Positions 998 to 61,029 of a stretch of 64,000 nucleotides of DNA are shown one piece after another (within the stretch, counting starts at the first letter, position 1; every line of letters begins with the position of its first letter). This DNA is from Darksidea phi. Its lineage: Eukaryota; Ascomycota; Dothideomycetes; Pleosporales; Lentitheciaceae. The notes under the pieces were generated by a model. It made no database searches and had not been told where the DNA came from. It worked only from the letters and a program-made list of their open reading frames with translations. The position numbers and the translations under genes were made by a program. The stretch covers positions 149,151 to 213,150 of the forward strand of contig JASJFT010000066.1 in the NCBI GenBank assembly GCA_030770425.1. The letters are read 5' to 3'.

Positions 998-2953
998 ATG
1001 AATTCCGCTTCCGACCTCATCCATCGATTTCGGCGGTTGCCATTAGTGAATTCGCATTCTCAAAGAAGAGAGATTTGCCGCCCTTGTAAGAAGACTCTGT
1101 CCAAAGAAGGCGGCTCTTTTCGCCTGGTCAGCGATGTCTTCGAATCTCAACACGACTGTCCCGGATGCGACCTTTTTGCCGCTACTTTTGCGACCTACAA
1201 AGACAAATTCACCTCCAAGAGCCATTTTTTGATCTCGTATTATTCAGGGTTTAACGTAGTAGTCGGATCCGCAGCTGTAGAGGACTCTATACTAAGTTTT
1301 ACGATCTTCAAATTGCCTGGTAAGTTTTTCTTGGCAACAGCGTAAGCTATGCCTAAAAGTTGATATGCGGCTATAGGAAAATACTGCCCTTGGAACCAGT
1401 TAGAGGAGAAGCCTATAATATCCGGAGACACAGGCTCCGACCTTGCCGTCGCTCAGATTTCTCGGTGGGTTCAGACGTGTTCAGACTCACATGAGTGGTG
1501 TCAAGGTGTCTCTGAACCACAAATTCTCCCAAGTCGTATCCTAGAGATCCTAGCATCGAAGACTGTACGGTTAAAGGTCATATCCGAAAATGAAGTTGCC
1601 CCGTATACAACTCTGAGCCATGCTTGGGGTAAAACAAACTTAGTTCGAACAACCTCCTCGACTCTACTGGACTACCAACATAATATTCCATGGGACGACC
1701 TGCCTAAAACCTTCCAGGACGCTATTCAGGTTACTCTTCGGTTGGGCCTAAGATACATCTGGATTGACTCACTATGCATCATCCAAGACGACGACGGAGA
1801 TTGGCGGAAGGAAGGAAGCCGGATGGCCTCCATATACTCTCGGTCCTTTCTGACGATAGCGGCGACAAAGTCGTCCAATCCGAAAGGTGGCTGTTTTGCT
1901 GTCTCCAATCCTCGATATGTTGGCCACACGTACGAGTTGAGAGATTCTGACGGTGAAACATACACCATTGGCTCAAGGGATGAGCTCCCACACCTTGGGA
2001 ATAGGTATAACGACGTTCGGTTTCCGCTTGTTCAACGCGCATGGGTGTTCCAGGAACGTCTATTATCCACACGAATGCTACACTTTGGACCCGAAGAAAT
2101 GTTATGGGAGTGCATGTCGTGCTCTACCTGTGAATGTGGTTCCTGGAATGTATCCCATCTAGAAGACAAAACATTACCGCCTTGGGTACCTTTGGACTCT
2201 CCTGGAACAAATCCTTTTGTTGAACGATGGCATGCCACGGTTAAGACATATTCCAATAAGGATCTAACGGTCAACACAGACATATTTCCGGCATTGCAGG
2301 GTGTTGCCAAGCGCGTACAAGAGCAAAGGAAATGTTCTTACTATGCCGGGCTATGGGAGGACAGCCTATCGAAAGATTTGTTGTGGAACCGCTTCTTTCC
2401 TGACTTTATGACGCAATGGCGTGCACCTTCTTGGTCATGGGCTTCAGGAAGAGGAACTGTTATGTGGTACAATATGACGGAGGGGTACAGACCTTACTTT
2501 TCTGTTTTAGAAGCTAGCACGGAACCTGTTGGCGACGATATGCTTGGCGCCTTGAAGAGTGGACGACTAAAACTCAGAGGACCTTGTGTGATCACCACAA
2601 TTCGGCCCGACGAAGAAAAGTCAGTCTTCTGCTATACCCTCAGGCCTCATGATATTTATGTACCTCGGTATGACGGTCCCATGTGGCAATTCTATCCCGA
2701 CTTGAAAGACACTTGTTCACTGTCGGTAGATGTACCGCTCGTACTCATGAAAGCTGCTCGAAGGAAAGATGATTATGGAAAGCAGTATGTCCATTATGAC
2801 TTTCTAGTCTTCAAAGAGGTTGATGGTACTGAAGATGTCTACGAGCGCGTGGGTCTAGCTAGCTTATACGGCAAGCACAGTTGGGAAAAGAGGCACATGT
2901 TCCTGTACAAATTCGATTGGGCAGCCAAGGACATGACTATTACCGTCATATAA
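998..2953 (+). CDS. HET-domain (heterokaryon incompatibility) protein, 632 aa
   Basis: Exons 998-1319 and 1377-2953; the 57-nt intron has donor GTAAGT and acceptor TATAG, and the join keeps frame (phase 1). The ATG at 998 is the first in-frame ATG before the CRPCKK segment. The N-terminal part has the Cys/His pattern common ahead of HET domains. The HET domain spans about residues 181-333: APYTTLSHAWG opens it, then RYIWIDSLCIIQDD at about 233, then RAWVFQERLL at about 328. A downstream PSWSWASG segment is also typical of the family. HET proteins trigger cell death when genetically different hyphae fuse; the domain is TIR-like. The frame is open to its natural stop, so the gene looks intact. 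It is convergent with a second HET gene. Which partner it recognises cannot be read from the sequence. Confidence 0.88.
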
Positions 2954-3550: not shown

Positions 3551-5765
3551 TCACCCAAGCACTACTTCAATCCTCTCCTTCTCTATCGCCTCCCACGTCA
3601 GTTTCTCTACTCTTCCCAGCGCCTTCCTATAAGCCACCCCGTCTACCCACTCAATCCACAAGACATTATAGAACTCGTATAAATCATGGAACGATCTCTT
3701 CCTGCAACATTCCTCACTTCCCCACTCATCAAAGCTTTTTGCCTCCGTATCGTGATTCACAACGGAACCCGCTGATATCTCAATCAATTCGACTGCTTTT
3801 CTAGACGAACCCTTAGACAGGTCAACTGCGTTCTCAGGATCATCGTTCGAGCGGAGAGCACCTACCCGAGCGGACATATCAACTTCGTCGTTTCTACTGT
3901 GGTTCAAGCGGAGAACACCGGCCCAAGTGTTGGTGTCAGGGATGAGAAGATCTATGCAGCTGCACATGGAGGCATGGCTGTTGAACGCAGAGCCGGCTGT
4001 GAGGAAGGCACGGGTTGTAATACAGTGTAGGTAACGGGCGCTTACAGGAGATGTTTGAGTGATACTTTGGTCTTGAATTGGAATTGGATAGAGGAACGGC
4101 TGCGGCGGATCGCAGGTGTGATAGTAGACATATGCGCCTTCGAAGTTAGGATTCCATACCTTGGACCAGCCGGAGGATGCCATTTCGCGAGTGAAGCTCT
4201 GCTGAGGGCACGTGATGCAGCTATTAATCTTTTCGCGAGGTGATGATCGTGTCAGTGAATACGACCATGCAACGGTGCTCGTGGTCTTCCAGGAACAGCG
4301 TTCCCGGGTACCGTATTTGCTGGTCTCGAGCAAGTAATTTGCCGCGCTTCGCCAACTCTCGGAGTCTAATATAAATGAGAAAGCCTGTCTGTAGAGAAGA
4401 ATGGAGATACTAACTAACATCGCCTGCCCAGCCAACCCATGACCACGAGGGCAGCACCGCTTCGGAAGCTGGGCCGACACTCACCCGACGTGGCATGCTT
4501 ACCCATGGCTGCCAGAGTAGCGCAGCATCAAAGCACAGTTGCGGAAGTCCAGATATAAAGCCCCCCGAAAATGTACGACTGAGGTGTGAAAGCACACCAG
4601 CAAACGCTTGAAGTACATCCTCCGGATAGGTAAGTTTTCTTTGGTTAAAGAGCGAAACCAGCCGGGCGTATCGCGACATATCCGGCCACGGCGACGTTGT
4701 GAAGCCGGACAGCAGAATGTCGTTGTGATGATATGCGATAGATGACTGAGAGGCGGCACGTATGACCGACTTTGTTCTCGACATGTCCTGCAACTCATGC
4801 CAGGCAGCATCAAGACATTCCCAATTCACAGTGTCGTTCTGGAAGACAACTCGTCGTTTTGAGAACAGATATTCTTGACAGGTCCAGGCGCGCGAATACC
4901 ACTTCGTCCCCATGAGATTTTGCGCCTGGTTTAGCAGTATGCGTTGGCCACTCATTGTGGGCAAGGATTTGAGAGGTTTACCCCAGCCGAGCCAGTTCAT
5001 CATTCTCGCTTTACGCTTTAGGTTCAATGGCAGACGCTCCTCGTATAACTTGCTAGAAGCGTCATTGCCTTGCGCTGCGACAATGGTAAAGTAGGAGCGA
5101 GCATAGATGTTTCCCATGTCATTCAATTGGGCTTCCTTTCCAACACCTTCGTCTTGTATGATACAAAATCGATCGCACCATAAGTAACGCACACCTAGCT
5201 GGCGTAGGAAGCTGATAGTGTCTTTGATTGTACGTGGAAGGTCGCCGAAGCGATTGAGTCCGTTCGCTTGTTTCAGACTGGCGACGTTTTCTTTGGTAGT
5301 GCAGGCAGAAGCGCTGGGATCTCCCCATACATAGCTCAGTGCTACGTAATTTGCCGCTGGAGGAGCTGTTACAAGGCAGTTGTCTTGAACGTCTATCAAT
5401 AGGAGCGGTCCGCTGGTTCCCGCTAGCGCGTGCGGCCCACAGCGACCGTGATGTAGCTGGTCGCACGTATCGAGCCAATCCTGAACAAGTTCTGCCAGGT
5501 TGAGAGATCGTTTCGCATTGGTTTGGGCTATTGATCTGTCCATTTCCTTTTCCACATATGGTAAGAAGGCGCTGAGACGAGGTACTACTTTTGGCTCATA
5601 TTCGGGTTGCTCCACCGTCTTTTGATCTGCGTTGGCAGTCGCCATGGAAGCCTCTGGATGTGCTTTACGCTGGGATACGAGCCGCTTGAGTGTTCTCGAA
5701 TACAAAATAGGATATGGATCAGGTAAGACACAGGAATGCAAATCCTTTGGGGAAGAGCGGCTCAT
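3551..5765 (-). CDS. HET-domain (heterokaryon incompatibility) protein, 721 aa
   Basis: Exons (minus strand) 5765-4415 and 4365-3551; the 49-nt intron (donor GTTAGT, acceptor ATTAG, phase 1) lies just after PSWSWVGWAGDV and joins it to SESWRSAANYLLE, the usual order in this family. The HET domain covers about residues 139-298: ALSYVWGD, then GVRYLWCDRFCIIQD, then SRAWTCQEYLFSKR. The middle block has Phe where most members have Leu (CDRFCIIQ). The C-terminal segment VLWIEWVDGVAYRKALGRV is typical of the large HET class, so the protein looks complete. ATGs at 5765 and 5645 are both possible starts; I chose the upstream one. The two HET proteins in this window are different types, not a recent tandem duplication. 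Role inferred from family: non-self recognition and programmed cell death. Confidence 0.85.
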
Positions 5766-6227
5766 TTTCGTTATGGCTAGCGGCTTGCGCTCTTGAGTGG
5801 TCGTGGGTTTCGCAAAATTGAGTGTATGCAATGTGGGCTAACGAAGCCGATAGTTGAAGAAAGGTGATAATGGTGGAGCAGGCTAGACATAGGACATCGA
5901 CCAGGCTACAGCTGCCAAGCATCGCGCTTTGCGCTATCATTGGTCAATTTTTACAAGATGAACGAGACCTCAATGCATGTACGCCAAACTGTTTCTGAAA
6001 ACACCAACGTGAGCAAGGAACAAAAGATGATCCTCGCTCTCATCGCCCCTTCGAGATCTGCGAGACCAACGTAAGTCCCATCATGTTCCTTTCTTGCGGT
6101 ACTGTCGACTTCCGTAGCACAGCCTCCACAGAATCTCGGTTCTCGCTAGCGCGAATACGACGTCTCACTCACAGACCAAAACGTCTAAAACACTCACTCT
6201 TCTCAAATTTGCAAGCACTATTCCCTC

Positions 6228-23639: not shown

Positions 23640-25894
<2,255 letters not shown>

Positions 25895-26540: not shown

Positions 26541-29500
26541 TTAATCATCGAACTGACTGACCTGCTTGACTGTCTGGTTTCCACCCACTTTCTGCTTCTC
26601 GCTCAACGACGACTTTCCAGACCCACCCGCCATAGCCGTCTCGACATCACCGTTGTTCTCTCTCTCCAAGAACAGATTCTCGGGAAACGGAAACAAGGTT
26701 CTCCTTCTAGGCGGTGACTTCTCAGTCGCAGACACCCACACAAGCGCCGTAATATCCTTGCCGAGCGCTTCGATGATAGGCGTGATAATCGGGAGGATAG
26801 CGAAGAGAACAGCATACGATGTTATTCCCACGATGGTAACGTTGATGCCGAATCCGAATCCGCGCTCGGCAATGAACACCATGAGCCACGAGCCCCAGCT
26901 CCAGAAGACGACGCCATGCATGAGGTAGATGGTGAAGACGTGCGGGAATAGGAAAAGCAAGAAGGGCAGCGAAAGGACCCATTGGACAGCGGGGGAAAGT
27001 TCGACTATGGCTTGCATGCCACCCGCGAAAAGCAACCCATTAAGGCGTGGGACAAAGTACTCCGGGTAGCCCGCACTAGGCGTGTTCCATATGGGTTCGC
27101 CCGTCCCTGGATCGGGGTGAACGTTATGCTCGTAAGTCGCGAAATTGAAGTCAACCCAATTGGGGATGAGGTTTGCGGAGAAACCCGCAGCGACACAGAG
27201 CCAGCAGAAGGTTATGAGCGGGAAATATACAGCTGGTCGTTCGTGCACCCACTTTTTGTAGTGGAAGGTGATGTCCAAATCCGCGAGTAGGAGGCCGAAC
27301 CACAGGTATGTGCCCCACGATAGCGCATACCAGTGGGAAACGAGACAGAAGACGTAGTAGCACATACGTTTCCAGGGCGTCTTGATCTCGTACACTACAA
27401 TGGCGCCACAGAGAACAAGCCACGAGCCTTGCAGCTGGACTGCAATGGTCCAGAGAACGCCGGTGCAGTAGTTGTATGTGATTTGCGGGACAGCGTTTGG
27501 GATGAGGTAGATTAGTTCAAGCACCTCGGAGACGTAGTGGCCGAAAGTACGGTAACGAGTGACGTACGGCCAGGTGGACCAAGTGATAGAAGGCAGATAG
27601 CGAAGGTAATTCGTGGCGCCAACGTCGACGAGGAAATATTGCAGTAGAGCGACCGATGCTACGGGAATCATCAGACGAGGTGTTCGGCGCACAGCAGCTT
27701 TGGCAATATCCTTCATGTTGCCCTTCTTTAGGTAACCCGCCACCAAGAAGCGAACGGAAGTAGTGAAGAACACACCCAGCCACATCTGGTTCAGAATAAA
27801 AGGCGCAATGTACTTCTGAGCCCAGCGCTCCGAGTTATAGTGTATGGGTGCTCCTGGAATGATCATGCCAGGTACGAAGGTAAGTCCGAAGTGCATTACG
27901 GTGACGAGAATGGAACACAGGGCGACTAAGCCGGCCAAGTAGTCGACTCTGTTTCGTGGCGCGGGCGGCTGAGCCCTCATTCGGGGCGCGGGGAGAGCTG
28001 ACTCGGTTACTGTCGACATCGGAATCTTATCGCCAGGGCCTGGAGTAGGTAACACCGCAATGGTCCTCTCGGATTGCGTTCGAGACTCTCCCTTACCATC
28101 TTTGGCGGAACCGAACTGGCTCCTCAGAGCGGGGTGAGACTGTTCTTTAGCCAAATCAAAGTGGCTTGCTTGAGGAGAAAGAACTTTAGGAGTCGTGCCC
28201 TGGCTCTCGAAGAGGAACGAACCCGAACGAGATGGGCCGCCATGAGTGGAGCCTCCCCAAAGTGATATGTCCGAACTTGGGTTCGCCTTCTCGATGGTAA
28301 GATCGTCTTTGGATTCGTCTCTCTGACTTGAGGAGCCGTCACGATTGACGTTGGGTAACGAAACCACACTCTCTGAATGTATCTCGCAAGACCGACGTTC
28401 GAAAGGGTTTTGGTTCTGTGGATTGTCCAACGAGTCACTCCCCATTATCGACGGCGAAGCTGCTACGTGACCAGGGTCACTAACCTTTGGCTGCTTCCGC
28501 CATGGCGCGCGACGAATGAATGCGTGAATGAGAAGGCAGCTTGAAAAGGAGATGCAGATGACAGAGATCCAAAGTGCCGGCATCCTCTTGATACTTTTTT
28601 GATCTGACTGCTTCCACTGTATTGTTGTAACGTCGGTATAAGGTGTTGATCCGCGGAGCATGGGGTCGTCCATGGAGCAGGCTTCTGTGACAGGACATCT
28701 AGCGATGAAGTCCTCGCGGTTCTCTTCATTCATTGACGAGGAGTTGAAGAACATGCGAATCCAGCCAATGCTCGCTACAGAAGCCTGGTTCGGAGGACCT
28801 TCCATCAAGAACCGATTGCCCGTGGACCAATGCTTGAAGTAGAAAGGAGAGGGTACCGACGGCATTCCTTCGTTCTCTTTGTGAAGAACTGTTCTAGTTA
28901 GATTTCCGCCAATATAGAACTTGATAGCGTCCTCGTTCCAGTCGATTCGGTATTCAACGTAATCCCAAGGATTAACGGTACCGTTCTCCAATATGTCGCT
29001 CAAAGTTGTATAGTTGCGATTGGCTGCGGGGGAGTCAAGGATCGTGCTGAAGTTCGTGCCGAGATTGCGGGTGGTGAATTCGCCGCCCACGAATGTGCCA
29101 ACCCAGGCTTCCGAAGGGTCATTGGTATTCATGAGGCTGAGCTCGGTGATCTCCGTCTCGTTGTACTGCCACATCATCGACATGGCAGATCCGCGCAACT
29201 CGCGCCTGGGAGGTTTCATTAATGTGCGAAAAGATCCATGCTGGATGTCGCGGCGCGCAGTTCGGATGCCAGCCCCGTCGACGAGATGGTTGTCAGTTGC
29301 GGGCGAAACAACCATGTGTAAAGAGTCGGATTCGTTGAGTTGCACATTGGCCGGGTTGGCTCCCTGGCGGTAGATGGCATTCCAGTCCTTCTCGTACTTC
29401 TGCTCGTAGTCTTCCACGACAAAGTCGCTTGGAAGGCTACTCGTCTCATTGAAATAAACAACGATCGAGTCCGTGAAACGCTCATTGGTGTGCACATCGT

Positions 29501-29591
29501 AAAAGCCGCATGAGCATTGCTTATCGCCGCTACGAACGTCGGCAAAGGATTGGAACGGGAAAAGGAACAGAAGAACAAAAACGAGAGACAT
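26541..29591 (-). CDS. GH16-like secreted domain fused to membrane acyltransferase, 1016 aa
   Basis: A single exon. Residues 1-17 are a signal peptide. Residues about 25-300 form a concanavalin-like GH16-type domain with at least eight N-glycosylation sites. At the place of the GH16 catalytic signature (ExDxxE) the protein has TEITELSL (about 146-153), so the nucleophile/acid pair seems lost. A membrane span lies at about 339-360, then a Ser/Pro-rich cytosolic linker (370-545). Residues about 549-950 are a multi-span domain of the acyltransferase-3 type: DYLAGLVALCS, VRRTPRLMIPVAS, GVLWTIAVQLQGSW, LMHGVVFWSWGSW. The tail is cytosolic. It likely binds a glucan-like polymer outside and transfers acyl groups across the membrane (inference). 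It is divergent from the GT2 synthase gene. Confidence 0.85.
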   Translation of the reverse strand: MSLVFVLLFLFPFQSFADVRSGDKQCSCGFYDVHTNERFTDSIVVYFNETSSLPSDFVVEDYEQKYEKDWNAIYRQGANPANVQLNESDSLHMVVSPATDNHLVDGAGIRTARRDIQHGSFRTLMKPPRRELRGSAMSMMWQYNETEITELSLMNTNDPSEAWVGTFVGGEFTTRNLGTNFSTILDSPAANRNYTTLSDILENGTVNPWDYVEYRIDWNEDAIKFYIGGNLTRTVLHKENEGMPSVPSPFYFKHWSTGNRFLMEGPPNQASVASIGWIRMFFNSSSMNEENREDFIARCPVTEACSMDDPMLRGSTPYTDVTTIQWKQSDQKSIKRMPALWISVICISFSSCLLIHAFIRRAPWRKQPKVSDPGHVAASPSIMGSDSLDNPQNQNPFERRSCEIHSESVVSLPNVNRDGSSSQRDESKDDLTIEKANPSSDISLWGGSTHGGPSRSGSFLFESQGTTPKVLSPQASHFDLAKEQSHPALRSQFGSAKDGKGESRTQSERTIAVLPTPGPGDKIPMSTVTESALPAPRMRAQPPAPRNRVDYLAGLVALCSILVTVMHFGLTFVPGMIIPGAPIHYNSERWAQKYIAPFILNQMWLGVFFTTSVRFLVAGYLKKGNMKDIAKAAVRRTPRLMIPVASVALLQYFLVDVGATNYLRYLPSITWSTWPYVTRYRTFGHYVSEVLELIYLIPNAVPQITYNYCTGVLWTIAVQLQGSWLVLCGAIVVYEIKTPWKRMCYYVFCLVSHWYALSWGTYLWFGLLLADLDITFHYKKWVHERPAVYFPLITFCWLCVAAGFSANLIPNWVDFNFATYEHNVHPDPGTGEPIWNTPSAGYPEYFVPRLNGLLFAGGMQAIVELSPAVQWVLSLPFLLFLFPHVFTIYLMHGVVFWSWGSWLMVFIAERGFGFGINVTIVGITSYAVLFAILPIITPIIEALGKDITALVWVSATEKSPPRRRTLFPFPENLFLERENNGDVETAMAGGSGKSSLSEKQKVGGNQTVKQVSQFDD

Positions 29592-30679
29592 GATGCAAAA
29601 AGGGATGCTGAACGAGTGTGAACAATGCTAACGAGGGCGAGAAACACGAAACCCTCAGATGTCTGCTGTTTTTGCATGCAAATAGAGTCAAGGCGAAGGC
29701 ACTAGACAGTCGCGCTGAGAAATGACAAGCAGACTGCTATACGACAAGATCATCTCTACGGGCTTCAGAGGGGCCGTAGAACCCTGTTTATGCAGGCATG
29801 TAGGGAGCCGTTGATGCAATCGAACACGCTAGGATCCTAGCTAGTATGACGGCAGGTGCAAACGGAAGACCCGTACGTCCAGCCATGGTGCTTCTTGGCG
29901 ATCATCATAATGCTGATTTTACCCGAAACGAGCTGGTAGTGTGGATTGGCGTTTAAGCGTCCTCACCATGTGGTGTTGAGGCTTGGGTTGGCACTGGGGC
30001 TTGGAACACTTTCCAATAGCCGCACAGACCACATCCGGCTTCATTCACAACGCCATGCGACTGACGCTCATCCACCCAGCAACCCGTCCTTATCGTCACA
30101 CCACAGTGTGTGCAGCTTGCGCGCCCGATACGTGGGATGGCTGAGACATGCATTTTCACGATCAGACTCTGGACGGTAGCTTTTGTTCGAGGCCGACCCA
30201 ACATATCATTCCTGCGCGATGTCTGCATGCACTCTTGAGTGAGACGGTTGCTAGCGCCTGCTCCCGAATTAACCCCTGGTTATTATTTCTGTTTCGGGCC
30301 AAGAGGCTGGCAGGATACCCGAGAATAAATCGCCTTTTGAGCCTCCAGCTTCGGACTATGAAGATCATGATATCCCGAAGTCGTCCGTCAAATCATTGGG
30401 CGCAGCATGAAAGCTTAATGGCAATCCCCCTTCGGAATAAAACCTTGGCAAACAGTAGACGCCATTGTCTCACCGACGGATACCCTCGCCACGCCTATCT
30501 ACACCCTTTTGTCTACCTTTTCTTTTACGCGTCTTGAGGTTGCACGAGGTGCTCCACCATTCTTCTTCTCTCGTCCTTCCTTCGAATTTACGACAACAGT
30601 TGTCACTCGTTTTAACTGAAGTCATTCTCCTTCTTCCCCCTTGCAGACATTTCGTCTCTACGCTGTTCCGTCTCCTACA
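29592..30679. other. Shared divergent promoter region of the glycan genes
   Basis: These 1088 nt lie between the ATGs of the fusion acyltransferase and the GT2 synthase. No gene is seen. The part before 30680 is pyrimidine-rich, as in many fungal leaders. Co-regulation of the two genes from here is an inference from the head-to-head layout. Confidence 0.5.
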
Positions 30680-32253
30680 ATGACCGAGTCCAAAACCCCC
30701 GCTATCGAGATTGAGGAGGCGCCTTTTTGCGCTCCGAATGAAAAGTCAATTACAAGAAAGAATTGGATCCCAGGGAACACCTGTGAAAAGATGTCAACGT
30801 TCATCTCCGACTGGACACCCTTTGGGCTTGTGGTATCCTATTTCATCTTCTCGACATGCCTCTACACATACTGTAGCGAGGACTTGATCGCCATTTTTTG
30901 GTTCATCTTCATGTCCACCAACTTCTACATCGCCGGAGCCACCGTCTTAGAAGCCTTTATGAGCATCACGCCTTGCCGCGAGGCGAGGAAAATCATCACA
31001 CAGGCCGAGGAGAAAGGATGGCTCTTTCCGACACCGCACGACAAGCTGCTAGTTCTCGACCTCCTCATTGTCGCATATTTGCCAAACGAACAAGACATTA
31101 TCATGGACCGGGCTCTCTATGCCTTGGAGCAGATCGATTATCCGACCGATAAGATCCGCATCAATATTCTTTACAACACACCGCGGTCAATCGAGCCGCT
31201 GGAGACTGAATTGCATCAACTTCCTCTCAAGTATCCCCACGCTAGAGTCATCAAGGTTCCCAACTCGACGTCCAAAGCCGACAACCTAAACTACTTTTTT
31301 ACATTGGACACGGGCTCGGACCTTATTGCGATTTACGACTGCGATCACTATCCCCATCCAAATGGACCTCGTTGGGCCGTGGAGCGTTTCACAGCTGATC
31401 GGGACATTGACATCGTGCAGGGCCGCTGCATAGTCTTCAATGCAGAGGAGAACTTATTGACTAGCTTGATTGCCGTCGAGTTCGACAAGATCTATGCCGT
31501 GTCTCATCCTGGTCGCGCAACTATGTGGGGTTTCGGTCTATTTTGTGGCTCCAACGGTTACTGGAGGACTTCACTTCTCCGAGAGCTTAAGATGGATGGC
31601 GAGATGCTTACCGAGGACATTGACTCAGCTCTCCGCGCATTTTCTCGTGGCTCGAAGACTGTCCACGACTTGAATGTCACCTCCTACGAATTGGCTCCGA
31701 CAACGTTCCCCGCGTTCTGGAAGCAACGTTTGCGATGGGCGCAAGGGTGGGCTCAAGCAAGCGTAAAACACCTCAAAATGGTCTACAATAAACCTCGCGA
31801 TCCCTTACACCCGAATTACAACCGCGACTTCACCGCCCGCTTCGGCGTCCTCTCACTTCTCCTCATCCGCGAAATTTCCTACTACCTGGTCACACAGTAC
31901 ACGTGTTTGGTACTCAGTTTTGTCTTCACCAAATTCCCGACCTCGGGTGAGGCCCTCTGGAAATTCGTCTACTTTCAATATCCGGTGTCACAATGGCTAT
32001 TTCTGATCAGGTTTGTGTGGCCCCGTCGCGTTTCAGCACTGAGCTAACGAGGTTGTGTAACAGCATTATCTGTCTGTTTGCGACACTATGGATTACGAAT
32101 CGGGTCAAATCGGAGTTTGTTTCGCGAAAGATGATCATTATCTTTTCGATTCTGTATCCGTTCTACCTCGTTTTGATGGCCACTATGGGACTGTATGGGC
32201 ATGCGAGGCAGATTGTCAAGTACAGCTCCTGGAACCCGACTGCACGGAAGTGA
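30680..32253 (+). CDS. Processive family-2 glycosyltransferase (polysaccharide synthase), 506 aa
   Basis: Exons 30680-32010 and 32064-32253; the 53-nt intron (GTTTGT to GTAACAG, branch GCTAACG) joins WLFLIS to IICLFATLW. There are two N-terminal membrane spans (about 47-66 and 68-95), then a cytosolic GT-A domain with every motif of processive beta-glycan synthases: KADN (199), DCD (220), TEDID (311) and QRLRW (349). C-terminal membrane spans follow. Relatives include cellulose, chitin, hyaluronan and curdlan synthases and the fungal GT2 proteins linked to hyphal growth on surfaces. The sugar cannot be told from sequence alone. At 506 aa it is much shorter than fungal chitin synthases. Its flanking membrane acyltransferase genes suggest that the polymer is acylated. 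Confidence 0.92.
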
Positions 32254-33632
32254 TCGACGTCTGTCCTTCGAAGTTTGCTCACCCCTCTTCATGTAAATTT
32301 CCAATTCCGGCGTTTTAACTTTGTCTTCTTTTCTTCTGAGACTCCTAAGGCGAAGATGCCGACATATCGGCGAACAGCACGGTTGTTGATAAGCTTATAC
32401 GAATAAACTTTAATTCCATGGCTGCCAAGACATTGTGTATCATCATCGGATTCTGGATTTCCCATCTAGCCAATGTAGAGCATGACATCTGTAATGCCTG
32501 CAAATTTCCTCCCGCTATTGAGCGTCGCCAAAGTTTCTGCGCGCATGCGTTGTCTGCTCTGTACGGCTAGGGTGCAAGAAATCCATGGGCACAGCCGTAT
32601 TCCCGGGATGATTTTCTGCGCACGTACGTCAATATTGCCGATCCATGGTGATCATCACCCTGAGTGCACATCCGCGATAAAGGTAAGTACTGTCATCGGT
32701 CCGCCTGAATATAGAAGCCGATCATATTGCTTAAAACGATCGTCCGGAAGGGTGATCGACATGAGATAAAAATGCACGATGCACAGGGGTGGACATCCGT
32801 ACCTGAAACTCTGACTCGAAAGGGCGTGGGGGGCATTTAAACTGTCTCACTTTCGCTTCAGCGAGCTTCCCATTCGCTGATGACAGACGCTTAAATTCTC
32901 TAGCGGAACGGAAGGGAATGCGCGTTAGCGTGCCCGTGTGCGGCTGGACGCGCCCCTGAGTATCGCAGTAGCGGACCGTGCAGTAGCTTTCTCGGAAACA
33001 TTATGTAGCACGTCGCGCGTACGGTGGAGACTGCCAAAGTCTTCGTGACGGTTTGAGTAGAAGCTCTAGCCAACTATAGGTATACATTGTTGGCAACCTT
33101 GCTCGAATCGGACCGGCTTGGAATATTAGATTTTCAAACAGTCCGTACTTTCCTATCTTCACCCCTGCCTCGGAGTAGAAGCCGAAGCGCGAGTCGGGAA
33201 CCCTTCGGGAACACCTGGGACGCTCCGTTCCACGCAGATAACGGAACAGCGAATAGCTCATTGGTTGTCACCTTTCCGGAACTGTTGAAGCTTACATGAA
33301 CGAAAACAGTGCAGGTGCCGCGTGGCGCTAGTGAATGCACGATTCGCTTGGCGCGATATCAATGTGCAGATGTTATGCTTGCGTGCACCGAAACTAAACG
33401 CTTGGAAATGAAAATCCGGCGAGTACAGTATAGGGGAGCAGGGGCAGTGGTATTGGAAGGGGTGCTGATCTCGGGACCCCAACGGAGGAGCGATGCTGTG
33501 CAACTGTGAGCAACATGAACGCACGTGTTTGCGATGAGTGAGTACCCACAGGTCTTTAGTTAATTCTTTTCTATGTCTTCTAGGTGTGCCTGATTTCCCT
33601 CACGTTTGTCCAGCCAGGTCAACCTCAGCATC
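32254..33632. other. Intergenic between synthase and acyltransferase genes
   Basis: About 1.4 kb with only short frames on both strands. I see no gene and no repeat; it includes the promoter of the acyltransferase gene. Confidence 0.45.
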
Positions 33633-35009
33633 ATGAAGTCTACACTTCAGTCCATTCGTTTGAACTCCCTCTCCTCATCATCTAAACCCTCAACCCCAGT
33701 CTCTCCTTCTGTAGCCTCGCAAGACTACCTCATTGGCCTTCGTGGTATCCTTACTATTCAATCGTTTCTCTTCGTCTTTTTTCAAACCTTTCTGCCTGCC
33801 GCAGTGGTAGACTCCAAAAACACCGATGGACCACTCTACCAAATCATTCTCAGAAAATCGCTCTCTGTTCTCTTTTGGAACGAGAGTCTCGTCTACTCTT
33901 TTATAATACTCCTCTCCGCTCGCACGATCTGCCTCCCCTTCCTAATAAATACGTCGCGCACCGTCTGCTCATCAGCCATTTTCCGCCGTGGTATCCGTCT
34001 CTTCTTGCCAACGTTCGTCATATTCTCGCTCGCGGCAGCGGCGTTCAGTACCACCTCCACGCGATACATATCCGACTTTCTCGATCTCACTGGAAATGTC
34101 TCAACGACAGCACCTATCCGCTTCCGCAACTTCCTCGTCTACTTCAACTCCCTCTTCGACATCTTCTGGCTGAACAAAAAATTTGGTTCGCAAGCTGCCA
34201 ACCAGGCTTTCCCTTCGGGCACTGTTTGGGTTATCTCGGTGCTGTTCCAGCAGAGCTACACGGTCTACATGACCATGGTCATCGTGCCGTACACGCGCAC
34301 GTCGTGGCGTGTAAAAGCAATGCTTGCCATCATCCTCTCAGCGTTTTGGGTGCAGAGCTGGGCATGGTACAGCATTACCGGTCTCCTGTTGGCGGACGCG
34401 ATTCGCAACATGAACTTCCAGGACAAATCGAAATCAGGGTTACCCTTCTGGAAGTTTCGGATTCCGATGTGGCCCTTTTATTCTCTCCTTATCGTCGCTG
34501 GCGTGTTGGTCCAGTACTTGTTCGTCGCTTGGAAACCGGAGTACAGGAACAACGAACTACAAGGACATACGGGGCTGTATACCGGCGGCTCATTGAACGA
34601 GCGAGTTGATGAAGACCAGCCGCACGCAAGGATTGATAACTACCTCATCATTTTGGGCGTCATGCTGTCAGTCGAGACCTATGATGTCTTGCAGAGAGTG
34701 TTGAGGAGTAGGGTATTGGTGGAGATGGGGAAGAGGAGCTTCAGTAAGTCTAACGCCTATTCTCTGCCCATTCATAAGCTAACGGTCCCGAAAGGTATCT
34801 TCCTCGTCCAACCGTTGTTGATCTATACCGCGGGTATCAAGCTGTACATGCACATGCATGCCTCCGGTACCAACCATGAGCTAGCTACGTTTGCTTGCTT
34901 CGTCGTTTGCGCACCCCTAGTCGCACTCACATCGGAGGTATTTTACCGCGCTGTCGACATACCCAGTATCGCGATTGCAAAGGAGGCATGGGCTTGGTTG
35001 CGAGAGTAG
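33633..35009 (+). CDS. Multi-span acyltransferase-3-like membrane protein, 441 aa
   Basis: Exons 33633-34743 and 34795-35009; the 51-nt intron (GTAAGT, branch GCTAAC, acceptor GAAAG) is a multiple of three without a stop, so retention would add 17 residues. The ATG at 33633 is the first in frame. The protein begins with a Ser/Thr-rich cytosolic stretch and then about ten hydrophobic spans. DYLIGLRGILT (31), FRRGIRLFLPTF (117) and GTVWVISVLFQQ (196) mirror the same-order motifs of the fusion acyltransferase at 26541-29591, so the two membrane domains are related. The family moves acyl groups across membranes onto sugars. The extramembrane GH16-like part is absent here. Same orientation as the GT2 gene, 1.4 kb downstream. 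Confidence 0.82.
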   Translation: MKSTLQSIRLNSLSSSSKPSTPVSPSVASQDYLIGLRGILTIQSFLFVFFQTFLPAAVVDSKNTDGPLYQIILRKSLSVLFWNESLVYSFIILLSARTICLPFLINTSRTVCSSAIFRRGIRLFLPTFVIFSLAAAAFSTTSTRYISDFLDLTGNVSTTAPIRFRNFLVYFNSLFDIFWLNKKFGSQAANQAFPSGTVWVISVLFQQSYTVYMTMVIVPYTRTSWRVKAMLAIILSAFWVQSWAWYSITGLLLADAIRNMNFQDKSKSGLPFWKFRIPMWPFYSLLIVAGVLVQYLFVAWKPEYRNNELQGHTGLYTGGSLNERVDEDQPHARIDNYLIILGVMLSVETYDVLQRVLRSRVLVEMGKRSFSKSNAYSLPIHKLTVPKGIFLVQPLLIYTAGIKLYMHMHASGTNHELATFACFVVCAPLVALTSEVFYRAVDIPSIAIAKEAWAWLRE

Positions 35010-36449: not shown

Positions 36450-37315
36450 TCAGGAAGCCACCTCTTGCTTCTGGGTCGGCTCGCACACCTTCTTGTGCAC
36501 CTTCCAGTGCTTCCTCTGGCACTCCGCCCCACAGTACTTCCTCTCCTTGCATCTCGCACACTGCAGCAACGCCACGCCACCTTGACCGTCCTTGGCGCCA
36601 CAGCCTCCACAAGCGTTGGGGTTGTTGTGCTTGTCGCGAAGCTCCTTGATGACGACTGAGGTAGCAGAATCGCCCATGCCGGTGTTGAACAGGCCACCAG
36701 GACCCATGACGTTCATGCCGACGAAGCCGAATTTGTTCGGCTTCGGATCATCCATGGAATTCGCCGTCTCGAGCAGACCTTTGGATTTAAAGTCGTACGG
36801 CACGCCATTCTGGAAGCCATCCGGGCCAAAGAGCGCCGTGCGCATCTGCTTGAGGGCGTCAGGCATCAAGCCGCCTTCAGTGTAGACCATCTTGAGCATG
36901 GTGATGTACGAGTCCGGGAGCTGGCAACCGAGCGTCATGGCGCAGGCTCCGAGGAGAACGTAGGCGTAACACGGATCCGGCCACTCATAATCTTTGGGAA
37001 CCGAGAGGAGCTTGGCCTCCTTCTTCTCGATGATATCAGCGAGAACGCCCGAGTCAAGATGATCGCGGACTAGTTTAGGATCGGAGCAGGATGGTGCGTA
37101 GATGGAGTAGTAGATTCGCTCTTGCGCTTTCGTATGGCCCTCAGCTGCAGCCTTGGCCTTTGCTTCGGTTTCCAAATTGTGCAAGCCCATCTCGCTGGCC
37201 AAATCATCTGTGATATCGAGGTCATGGTCCGATTGGAAGAGGCCTTTCAATGCGTCAGTCGGCGTGCTTTCCGATGTGTAGCAATTTTGCACTCACCGTA
37301 TCCCCAGGCACCCAT
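36450..37315 (-). CDS. MYND zinc-finger protein, 270 aa
   Basis: Exons 37315-37297 (19 nt) and 37243-36450; the 53-nt intron (GTGAGT to GAAAG, branch CTGAC) gives MGAWGYGLFQSDHDLDI, a start typical of this fungal group. The C-terminal MYND finger has the expected Cys/His ladder: CGGC, CARC, YCGAEC, HWKVHKKVC (about residues 219-261). A helical middle of roughly 180 residues shows no enzyme motif. MYND fingers bind proline-rich peptides of partner proteins. Function beyond protein-protein contact is unknown. The tiny first exon sets the start; a scan for long ORFs would instead begin inside the intron. Confidence 0.87.
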
Positions 37316-57900: not shown

Positions 57901-60117
57901 TCAATGGGGTCCCGGCCCCGCTATAGGCGGCGGCCCTGTAGGCACATGAGGCACATGGGGCACGCCATCCTGACCAAAGAGGCTCCCCAAATTCCCCCAG
58001 TTCCAATCTTGGATATTGTTGATAGTGAAGTCCATGAAAGACATCTGCGTAGTCCGGTCGAAGAGGGTATTCGAATAGGGAGTGTCGGCGGCAAAGTCCG
58101 CATCTTGATAAAAGCGGCCTGGCGTACTATCCGCAAGCATATATACGCCGCTATTCGTAGTTGAGTGATGGGGTCCGCAGGGTGCCGACTGGTGCTGCTG
58201 CTGAGGGTGCGAAGCGAGGGGAGACGGACCCGGTTCAGGCCGTGTGTCGGCTTGCCTCAATAAAGTCTTGTCTATTGAGCCGGCCATGGCGTGCAATTCC
58301 GGGATGATGGAGGCAAATTTTTCGATCGTTCCAGGTATGTGTGGGTTTCGCCGGTGACGTTGCGCTAGATCCGCGAGCTCTGATAGGAGGATGCGAGATT
58401 CTGAGACATCACTGTTTAGTTGCTTTCTACTGTTGCAGACCATGTCGAGAACAAGCACTGAGCCGGATGTCAGTGCGTACCATATATCCCACCAAGTAAC
58501 GGCATCGAATTTGCCCATGGATTCCAGTCGGAGTAGTATGCGACCGAGAGCTTTACCCGAGTGAGCGCATGAGACCGACATGCCAATAAGAGCTGTGTTG
58601 GTGGAGTCTTTTCCCTCCCTCGACAAGGTTGTCGCCCGTGCGAGCAATGCGGCCCGGCATAAGACCATGACCGTATAGTGATACAACGCGTGTAGAAGCA
58701 ACAGAGGTCGGTGGAAAGCAGGCGGCGACGTGTCAAGAGCTTCTATTCGTAGATGCTGTGGAAGGCTGTTGATCCATCGCTCCAAGTCTCTAAGCACCCC
58801 GGCTGCTGGCGAGAGCGGTCCGACGTACGCTTCTTCACTCGACGCTGACCTCGTGCTCTTCGGCGCACGGCATGCAGAGCCCAGATGCACCGCCATGCTG
58901 TTGAACCACTTCCAGTAGTCGGGCGGGCAGTGACTCGCCATACCGATGATGCGATCGTTGGGACAGCCAATCTTTGAGCCCGCATCCTCAATAGCACTCG
59001 GACGGTCGTACGACGAGACCTGCATCTGTTCAAACGCGTACAGTGTCCACCACACGCATTTGCGTACTTCGCGGGCTAGCGGCGTCTGTGTCGTGTTGAC
59101 TTTGTCCTGGTGGAGTCCAATGGCGAAGGCGATGCGCACTGCAGTCCCGGTTAGATTCCAGCAGGCGTCCCGATGGTTTGTATTATGAAGATGGATAGCC
59201 GCCAGCATAAGCGCTTGCACGGCCATAACACTAGATGTGAATATCACGACCGGGAGCAGAGTCTGAACTCGCCGCCACCACATGCGCTCCTGCTCCTCCG
59301 GAAACGTGACGCGTGCCACGCGCCCAGATAGAAGTAATACACACAGGAAGGCGCAAAGCCATGCAGGATCGGCCTTTGCAGGTTCGACCATCCATACCTC
59401 GTATGCTTCGCGAAACGAAGCTTCGTGGAGCACCCTGAAGTCTGGATTGATATGGTTGAAGAAGGCGCCGATCAAAGACTCCAGAGCTGACGATTCTACT
59501 CTAGGCGATGATTTGTGGTCAAAGGTGGTGGGAGTGGCGCCGGGGGTAGAAAGCGTGTGGGGATCACTGTCGCCTTCTATGGGATCGGGATCTGCTGCAG
59601 CGTTCCTCCCAAAGAGCACGAATTCGCGGAAGGCTCCCTGGCCACATAGTGCGCGCAGCTTCAGGTGGAAGGAGAAGGAGCTTGACGGTCCAATGTATTG
59701 CACCTGTCCTTGCTGGTCGGGGAGCAGAGACAGCGGTTCATCGCCGTCTGTCCCACTGCCGCCCACCTGCTCGCCATGGGTGTTAGTGTTCGTCGAGCCG
59801 GGCAGCGGTATGTCGAGTGATATGGCCAGCTGTCGCATCTCATCCATGTTCGATACGTCTGCTTCCGGGAGCATCCCCTTTACCAGCGACTCCAGCAAAG
59901 CCATGCGGCTACTGAGCCCCTCCACGCTGCCATAGAGCCTCTTCTTCCGCGGCTGTGTGGTTTGGCACTCGACATTGTGCGCGAGACAGTAACGACACGA
60001 CTCTTGGCCGGGATCCCTTTTGCACTTCTGCTTGCGCGACTTGCACTTGTCGCAGCTCGTCTCGGTGCGCTTCCGCTTGTCGAGCGGGACGCGGCGGGAG
60101 TTCGTGTTGGACGACAT
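57901..60117 (-). CDS. Zn2Cys6 fungal transcription factor, 738 aa
   Basis: A single exon. The binuclear zinc cluster lies at residues 22-51: CDKC, KSRKQKC, then ESCRYC and HNVEC (C-X2-C-X6-C-X8-C-X2-C-X6-C), flanked by basic residues. The linker and a short coiled segment follow (GLSSRMALLESLVKGML). The middle homology region (Fungal_trans type) starts at about residue 210 (ALESLIGAFFNHINPDFRVL) and includes HRDACWNLTGTAVRIAFAIG, VRKCVWWTLYAFEQMQVSSY and RPSAIEDAG. The C-terminus is Gln/His/Pro-rich and acidic in parts, as for an activation region. It is divergent from an FAD amine oxidase gene 1.44 kb away, so it may regulate that gene (inference). Confidence 0.93.
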   Translation of the reverse strand: MSSNTNSRRVPLDKRKRTETSCDKCKSRKQKCKRDPGQESCRYCLAHNVECQTTQPRKKRLYGSVEGLSSRMALLESLVKGMLPEADVSNMDEMRQLAISLDIPLPGSTNTNTHGEQVGGSGTDGDEPLSLLPDQQGQVQYIGPSSSFSFHLKLRALCGQGAFREFVLFGRNAAADPDPIEGDSDPHTLSTPGATPTTFDHKSSPRVESSALESLIGAFFNHINPDFRVLHEASFREAYEVWMVEPAKADPAWLCAFLCVLLLSGRVARVTFPEEQERMWWRRVQTLLPVVIFTSSVMAVQALMLAAIHLHNTNHRDACWNLTGTAVRIAFAIGLHQDKVNTTQTPLAREVRKCVWWTLYAFEQMQVSSYDRPSAIEDAGSKIGCPNDRIIGMASHCPPDYWKWFNSMAVHLGSACRAPKSTRSASSEEAYVGPLSPAAGVLRDLERWINSLPQHLRIEALDTSPPAFHRPLLLLHALYHYTVMVLCRAALLARATTLSREGKDSTNTALIGMSVSCAHSGKALGRILLRLESMGKFDAVTWWDIWYALTSGSVLVLDMVCNSRKQLNSDVSESRILLSELADLAQRHRRNPHIPGTIEKFASIIPELHAMAGSIDKTLLRQADTRPEPGPSPLASHPQQQHQSAPCGPHHSTTNSGVYMLADSTPGRFYQDADFAADTPYSNTLFDRTTQMSFMDFTINNIQDWNWGNLGSLFGQDGVPHVPHVPTGPPPIAGPGPH

Positions 60118-61029
60118 GGGCGCGGGTACAACCGTGGCACATGCGGCGAAGGATCGGTCAGGGAGGATTGCCGAAACGGCGACTCACCATGCCGCAACGT
60201 CCATGAGGAGCGCGCGAGAGCATTGAGAATGATGAAAGTTCACACAGAAGACGAAGGTTCCCGAGCTTCAGGCCTTTGGCGGCGCACGGCTAATACCGAA
60301 GATCCAGCTCTTGCGGGGACCGCCATGCCAAGCGACTCATGATGGGACACGCCCCAGATTGCGCGAGTCATCTAGAAAAATCGGTTCCACGAACTACTTG
60401 TTCCCTCAGTATGTGCTATGACTGCAGCAGACCAGAAGCCCTCTGATCTGTTTCCGGATATGCGACCACCTATATACCCGTACAAAAAGGCCCGATCACT
60501 GCCAGCTTGTCGCTCGCACAGCCCATCGCCCACGAGCGGATAGGTCGCAATTTGGCCTATCTACAAATAATTAGCGCAACAGCCACAGGAAACCGCATCT
60601 GAACCTTTTTGAAGCCGCATCCCACGCGTATACGCTGGCCGTAACAATTAGCATTCAGCACGTCTTCCGCGCGCTCGTCGAACGTATCGTCGTAACGATT
60701 TCAATTTTTCGATCGGAACGCGCCCCTCTCCACTCCGCCATATACTTGGGACCGGCGTCTGCACGTATATTAGCGCCGCGTCAGTTATCGCATACAAGAT
60801 GTACGGCGTGTCGACGGTTGCTTTGTTTTTCAGAAGAACTCCAAAGGTGGCTTGCATAGGCAGAAATTGTCGATTGCTTCGAATTCCGCGCGGGAAGCTC
60901 ACCGTTCCTTACTCGTGTAACCTCCTGTGATCTGGCAACTCTAATTAGCAGCATTGAATGTTCTCGGTCTCGAAGCGCTCTGTAAGCAGGTATCAAGCCG
61001 CCTGTATCTTCCCACCCGATATATACCGT

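Follow-up and report, generated by a model that had tools for sequence, protein, structure and literature searches.

BcsA-type GT2 synthases polymerise and extrude glycans, and proteins of the TmAT superfamily (AT3, HGSNAT, GWT1, CASD1/Cas1) use acyl-CoA from the cytosol to acylate acceptors on the extracytosolic side of the membrane. In OafA, OafB and OatA (AT3-SGNH), a membrane AT3 domain is fused to an extracytoplasmic carbohydrate-active one, and the GH16 family (lichenase, laminarinase, the Crh5 transglycosylase) combines a jelly-roll fold with the catalytic motif ExDx(x)E. Here we describe three genes (A, B and C) from a 64,000-nucleotide stretch of Darksidea phi DNA (the window; contig JASJFT010000066.1) in which such elements adjoin: a BcsA-like GT2 synthase (B) lies between two genes with AT3-type membrane domains, one of which (A) also carries a GH16-like ectodomain and is divergent from B. 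This is the arrangement drawn up in the original prediction, and A, B and C are real genes, all within window positions 26541-35009. Their neighbourhood is conserved among fungi, and we propose, as a reading that to our minds could fall either way, that the products of A, B and C work together at the membrane as a conserved unit, which builds an extracellular polysaccharide of the fungus and decorates it.

The fungal systems closest to B in how they work are the Cps-type surface GT2s (CPS1, CpsA/RseA, ZtGT2, MoGT2), which the available excerpts of six papers treat as single genes (PMC5653360, PMC9500679, PMC6731526, PMC8539240, PMC6485754, PMC10017718); the word 'acyltransferase' has 0 occurrences in these texts. 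Neither the trio nor a GH16-AT3 fusion is named in any title or abstract found, a survey that had preprints, subscription papers and supplements outside its scope and included no search aimed at the GT2 family of B. Gene models built from the window sequence gave the following features:

26541..29591, minus strand: gene A, GH16-like ectodomain, one transmembrane segment, linker and AT3/TmAT domain; single exon, 1016 amino acids
29541..29591, minus strand: A residues 1-17, hydrophobic N-terminus and probable signal peptide (read by eye; predicted helix 2-14)
28737..29504, minus strand: A residues 30-285, GH16 beta-jelly-roll with the motif lost (E150-L-S-L-M-N155), from profile, alignment and structure matches
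28509..28586, minus strand: A residues 336-361, predicted helix of the structure model, taken as transmembrane
27969..28499, minus strand: A residues 365-541, probably disordered linker (predicted local distance difference test, pLDDT, < 50)
26724..27944, minus strand: A residues 550-956, helical domain of AT3/TmAT type; H567, S612-x-R614, R636xxR639, Y889 and H892 present, no Arg/Lys in 551-566
29592..30679, no strand: A-B intergenic region, 1,088 bases between divergent genes, possible shared promoter
30680..32010, plus strand: gene B exon 1, BcsA-like GT2 (KADN 31274-31285, DCD 31337-31345, TED 31610-31618, QRLRW 31724-31738)
32011..32063, plus strand: gene B intron, 53 bases, GT-AG; a homologue has equal spliced length
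32064..32253, plus strand: gene B exon 2, hydrophobic C-terminal portion with tail WNPTARK, from the sequence
33633..34743, plus strand: gene C exon 1, AT3/TmAT-like (R37 33741-33743; His slot V48 33774-33776; S95-x-R97; R119xxR122 33987-33998)
34744..34794, plus strand: gene C intron, 51 bases, GT-AG
34795..35009, plus strand: gene C exon 2, end of the TmAT domain, where the usual second His is Q376 by alignment

Conservation of the A-B-C neighbourhood

Linkage and residue counts were made on 120 listed homologues per protein (121 rows with the query where so given), drawn from a database clustered at 90% identity. Homologues were placed on one contig when the longest contigs holding them have identical length, a measure that for long contigs does not prove adjacency. 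By this count, 25 contigs are common to A, B and C, 11 to A and B, 24 to A and C and 8 to B and C, so that pair matches amount to 36 (A-B), 49 (A-C) and 33 (B-C); when lengths were slid by 1-100 bases both ways as a control, mean matches were 0.13, 0.04 and 0.26, respectively, with a maximum of 2. Species names, present on 43 of the 68 matched contigs, are in disagreement on none. The search for a conserved neighbourhood across fungi that the original prediction had put forward as its check is thus passed, with 25 contigs carrying all three genes and 43 carrying two.

Locus tags run consecutively through the trio in Coniothyrium glycines (A 002429, B 002428, C 002427) and Sarea resinae (A 002080, B 002081, C 002082), and pairs are found in Neocucurbitaria cava (A 004905, B 004904), Coniosporium tulheliwenetii (A 003214, B 003213), Monilinia laxa (B 000891, C 000892), Claussenomyces (B 005625, C 005624) and Plenodomus lindquistii (A 007360, C 007362). 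Since two contigs of only 10,110 and 10,975 bases carry A, B and C, the genes are closely spaced on these as well. Linkage ranges over Dothideomycetes, Leotiomycetes and Sareomycetes; the Eurotiomycete Paecilomyces lecythidis has an A homologue without a matched contig. B and C encode proteins of 506 and 441 amino acids, lengths equalled by their Trematosphaeria homologues, and A has 342 homologues at E <= 0.001. Because many among the best 120 of these 342 are full length, the fusion of GH16-like and AT3 domains is not peculiar to one genome.

Rows matched to another member of the trio number 60/120 for A, 57/120 for C and 44/120 for B; the remainder lend the proposed unit no linkage support, although most of them say little either way, since clustering at 90% identity conceals some members. 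Lophiostoma and Clohesyomyces have their listed GT2 on a different contig than C; this GT2 is a divergent relative (61%), with no closer one among the matches listed. Species whose A, B and C records differ in length fall outside the count, among them Phyllosticta capitalensis, Alternaria alternata, Macrophomina and also Cryomyces antarcticus (tags 989 and 991).

Synthase B and the fungal Cps proteins

B belongs to the GT2 synthases by its Pfam scores of 71.3 (PF13632) and 49.2 bits (PF13641), with cut-offs of 27, and carries the predicted synthase motifs KADN (residue 199), DxD (DCD 220), TED (311) and QxxRW (QRLRW 349). It shares these with BcsA, and its low-E relatives in the PDB are bacterial cellulose synthases only (E 8.1e-14); at 506 amino acids, it has no further domain matched.

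DxD and QxxRW are also common to B and the Cps proteins, yet their spacing is not. In the rows of the B family the two motifs lie 129 (114 times) or 130 residues (5 times) apart in a set of 121, one row having its DxD at 140, whereas positions given in excerpts of the respective papers place them 145 residues apart in MoGT2 (D156-Q301; PMC6731526) and 140 in FvCpsA (D161-Q301; PMC8539240). In BcCps1, as described in section 3.1 of PMC9500679, a W motif is followed by a disordered region, while the W motif of the B family stands 6-7 residues before the end in 91/121 rows, WNxT is absent in 30, and a longer tail occurs in none. As spacing and tail differ from published positions and descriptions, B is not to be filed under Cps (CPS1/CpsA/ZtGT2), a candidate identity that we consider unsupported; the comparison sets B apart as evidence rather than proof. 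Placing B as Cps1 or Cps2 by trees or identity tables is moot once membership itself finds no support. Hence, the earlier hint at fungal GT2s for growth on surfaces survives only as an analogy, B being unlike a member of that family. Relatives at about 60% identity to B are not one clade (approximately unbiased test, p-AU 0.012, for a group picked after the first tree).

Kinship of the homologues places the fungus among the pleosporalean Dothideomycetes, close to Trematosphaeria and Lentithecium. In its 51.35 Mb genome (477 contigs), neither B nor a distant relative, used as query, matched any locus other than B itself, and Pfam searches list other GT2 loci. One of them, L036 (G000:C32:76513-77214), has no BLAST match to B and spans 142 residues from DDD to QCLRW; judged by these motifs, it would be a better candidate than B for the Cps/ZtGT2-type synthase of this genome. 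Three more, L025, L026 and L027 (G000:C87, C456 and C113), are mutually similar (about 60% identical), score 186, 176 and 161 bits with PF13632, above B, and show no BLAST relation to it.

GH16-like and AT3/TmAT domains of A and C

Pfam matches in A are confined to PF00722 and PF01757, with no SGNH domain among them. Fold and a PF00722 score of 27.5 bits (cut-off 22, residues 106-259) place the ectodomain in GH16, and its nearest structures are enzymes acting on beta-1,3-1,4 and beta-1,3 glucan together with fungal Crh5. Unlike these, A has no ExDx(x)E: the motif is found in 0/112 A rows having the segment (9/121 were too short there and dropped) and is kept in 8/8 other GH16 loci of the genome, for which short motif segments were compared. 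The reading as an active GH16 enzyme is rejected on account of this loss. The alignment is reliable in its later part only, leaving the exact register of the catalytic strand provisional; by the pattern test, the motif is retained in no register. With the motif lost, sugar binding is a more probable role for the domain than cleavage, which agrees with the polymer-binding part assigned to it beforehand. The nearest other GH16 relative of the ectodomain found in the genome (L020; G000:C3:93557-93886) has an HWS-x-G segment in common with A and retains the motif as QEIDMEF. The ectodomain may derive from an active enzyme of this kind.

Profile comparison bears out the prediction that A and C have an AT3-type region in common (probability 98.7, E 4.3e-16), and among the matches found in the genome, C is the best relative of the membrane part of A. 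The TmAT fold was recovered in the test for the AT3/TmAT assignment, and PF01757 is found in 13/61 relatives of C at E <= 0.01 and in 45/120 listed A homologues (precomputed). The first transmembrane helix (TMH1) motif R/K-x10-H, however, has decayed at opposite ends in the two proteins: the His survives in A (H567 in 120/121 rows) and the Arg in C (R37 in 120/121). The Arg of helix 2 (S-x-R; R614 in A, R97 in C) is invariant in both, and the RxxR of TMH3 is R636/R639 in A (121/121) and R119 (120/121) with R122 (117/121) in C. H567, RxxR, Y889 and H892 of A are retained almost without exception.

Several results weigh against the reading proposed above. PF01757 scores of 13.7 (A, residues 557-933) and 19.1 bits (C) stay under the Pfam cut-off of 31; Foldseek returned no match for C at E <= 0.001, its HGSNAT match coming from the second structure aligner only; and the structure search with A was taken up by GH16 chains, with no separate solved-fold match for the TmAT part. 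Arg/Lys is present at A residues 551-566 in 0/120 rows, and the corresponding Arg is essential in bacterial AT3, where OafA R14A retained 0.07% activity (PMC7448272, excerpt). His occupies position 48 of C in 0/121 rows (a single row carries one at 51), and the C-terminal His of AT3 type is missing from C in 91/94 ungapped rows. With its TMH1 His never present and its C-terminal His mostly lost, C is probably no stand-alone acyltransferase. Thus, the predicted common AT3-type domain holds, while each protein falls short of the PF01757 cut-off and of one half of R/K-x10-H; the notion of two ordinary acyltransferases is weakened.

Two further AT3 genes of the genome (L010, G000:C346; L011, G000:C290) have the normal R-x10-H intact, and the L010 stretch LLQESYKIY after W-T resembles LFQQSYTVY of C. 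Public names are inconsistent (P0073, P0160): an A orthologue is called 'Acyl-transf-3 multi-domain protein' and a 479-residue C orthologue 'glycoside hydrolase family 16'. Elsewhere in the window, a GH47 alpha-mannosidase gene lies directly beside A (24139-25674, plus strand, upstream part from 23604; PF01532, 482 bits) and a MYND zinc finger protein gene adjoins C (36453-37292, minus strand; PF01753). Two HET (heterokaryon incompatibility) domain genes occur within 5 kb (1364-2950, plus strand, 110 bits; 4413-5837, minus strand, 104 bits), and a fungal transcription factor gene is found at 57904-60183 (minus strand; PF04082, 65 bits; PF00172 slightly below cut-off).

A proposed route to an acylated glycan, and alternatives

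It is likely that A, B and C act in a common pathway, and acylation of the B polymer by the trio is plausible. B would polymerise and extrude a glycan, probably beta-linked, and the GH16-fold domain of A, free of its catalytic motif, may hold the emerging chain outside the cell. The TmAT domain of A would then take acyl groups from acyl-CoA in the cytosol and pass them through the membrane to the chain. C shares the TmAT fold but lacks the His of catalytic type; it may be a partner of A or B, e.g. in acyl-CoA binding, assembly or the chain path, and would itself catalyse little or nothing. That the polymer is acylated as it emerges is the economical reading because an outside fold of sugar-binding type, joined to a TmAT domain, adjoins the synthase. 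The layout differs from AT3-SGNH proteins, which A resembles in how it may work, in having a GH16-fold N-terminal domain instead of SGNH, no TMH1 Arg and a degenerate AT3-like partner. An extension that we rate as rather unlikely sees A and C as a split transmembrane acyltransferase, an obligate pair docked on the BcsA-like synthase and guided by the dead GH16 domain; it would fit the different halves of R/K-x10-H that each retains alongside the common helix 2 Arg.

The same losses, affecting half of the motif in A and in C in effectively all listed orthologues and extending in C to the usual C-terminal His, may be seen quite differently, namely as a sign that both proteins are no longer acyltransferases and serve as TmAT-fold scaffolds or sensors for polymer exit or wall state, sugar being sensed through the GH16 fold. 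To us this seems improbable in view of the residues that A retains almost without exception and of the invariant TMH2 Arg, which could stand in for the lost one. More doubtful is a scenario in which A acylates another acceptor, be it the beta-glucan of the wall, a sugar linked to lipid or the glycan of a glycoprotein, and has no more than its timing in common with B. The glucan enzymes and Crh5 nearest to its GH16 fold would suit such an acceptor, and the tie of A to the B product is one of gene neighbourhood; the A-B-C order, though, is retained over three classes. We give little credence to passive linkage of functionally unrelated genes that are not yet shuffled apart. While linkage counts cover A, B and C, and equal conservation of the flanking GH47 mannosidase and MYND genes would favour this view, all three products are membrane or secreted sugar-related proteins, A and C are related through their membrane parts, and linkage reaches from Pleosporales to Sareomycetes and Leotiomycetes.

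If the proposed making and acylation of one glycan by A-B-C is true, many filamentous fungi possess a set of three genes for producing an acylated glycan, a system unmentioned in the papers examined. As the product of Cps, the better known fungal surface synthase, is called elusive (PMC9500679, excerpt), a second synthase system beside Cps would widen the search and bring a chemical hint with it, acyl groups that alkaline extraction would strip. A and C, having lost opposite residues, would offer a clean test of acyl-CoA use by TmAT enzymes. Should the two indeed form a split acyltransferase, they would represent a new architecture for polymer acylation during extrusion and suggest that Pezizomycotina at large bear an acylated surface glycan not yet described and distinct from the Cps polymer.
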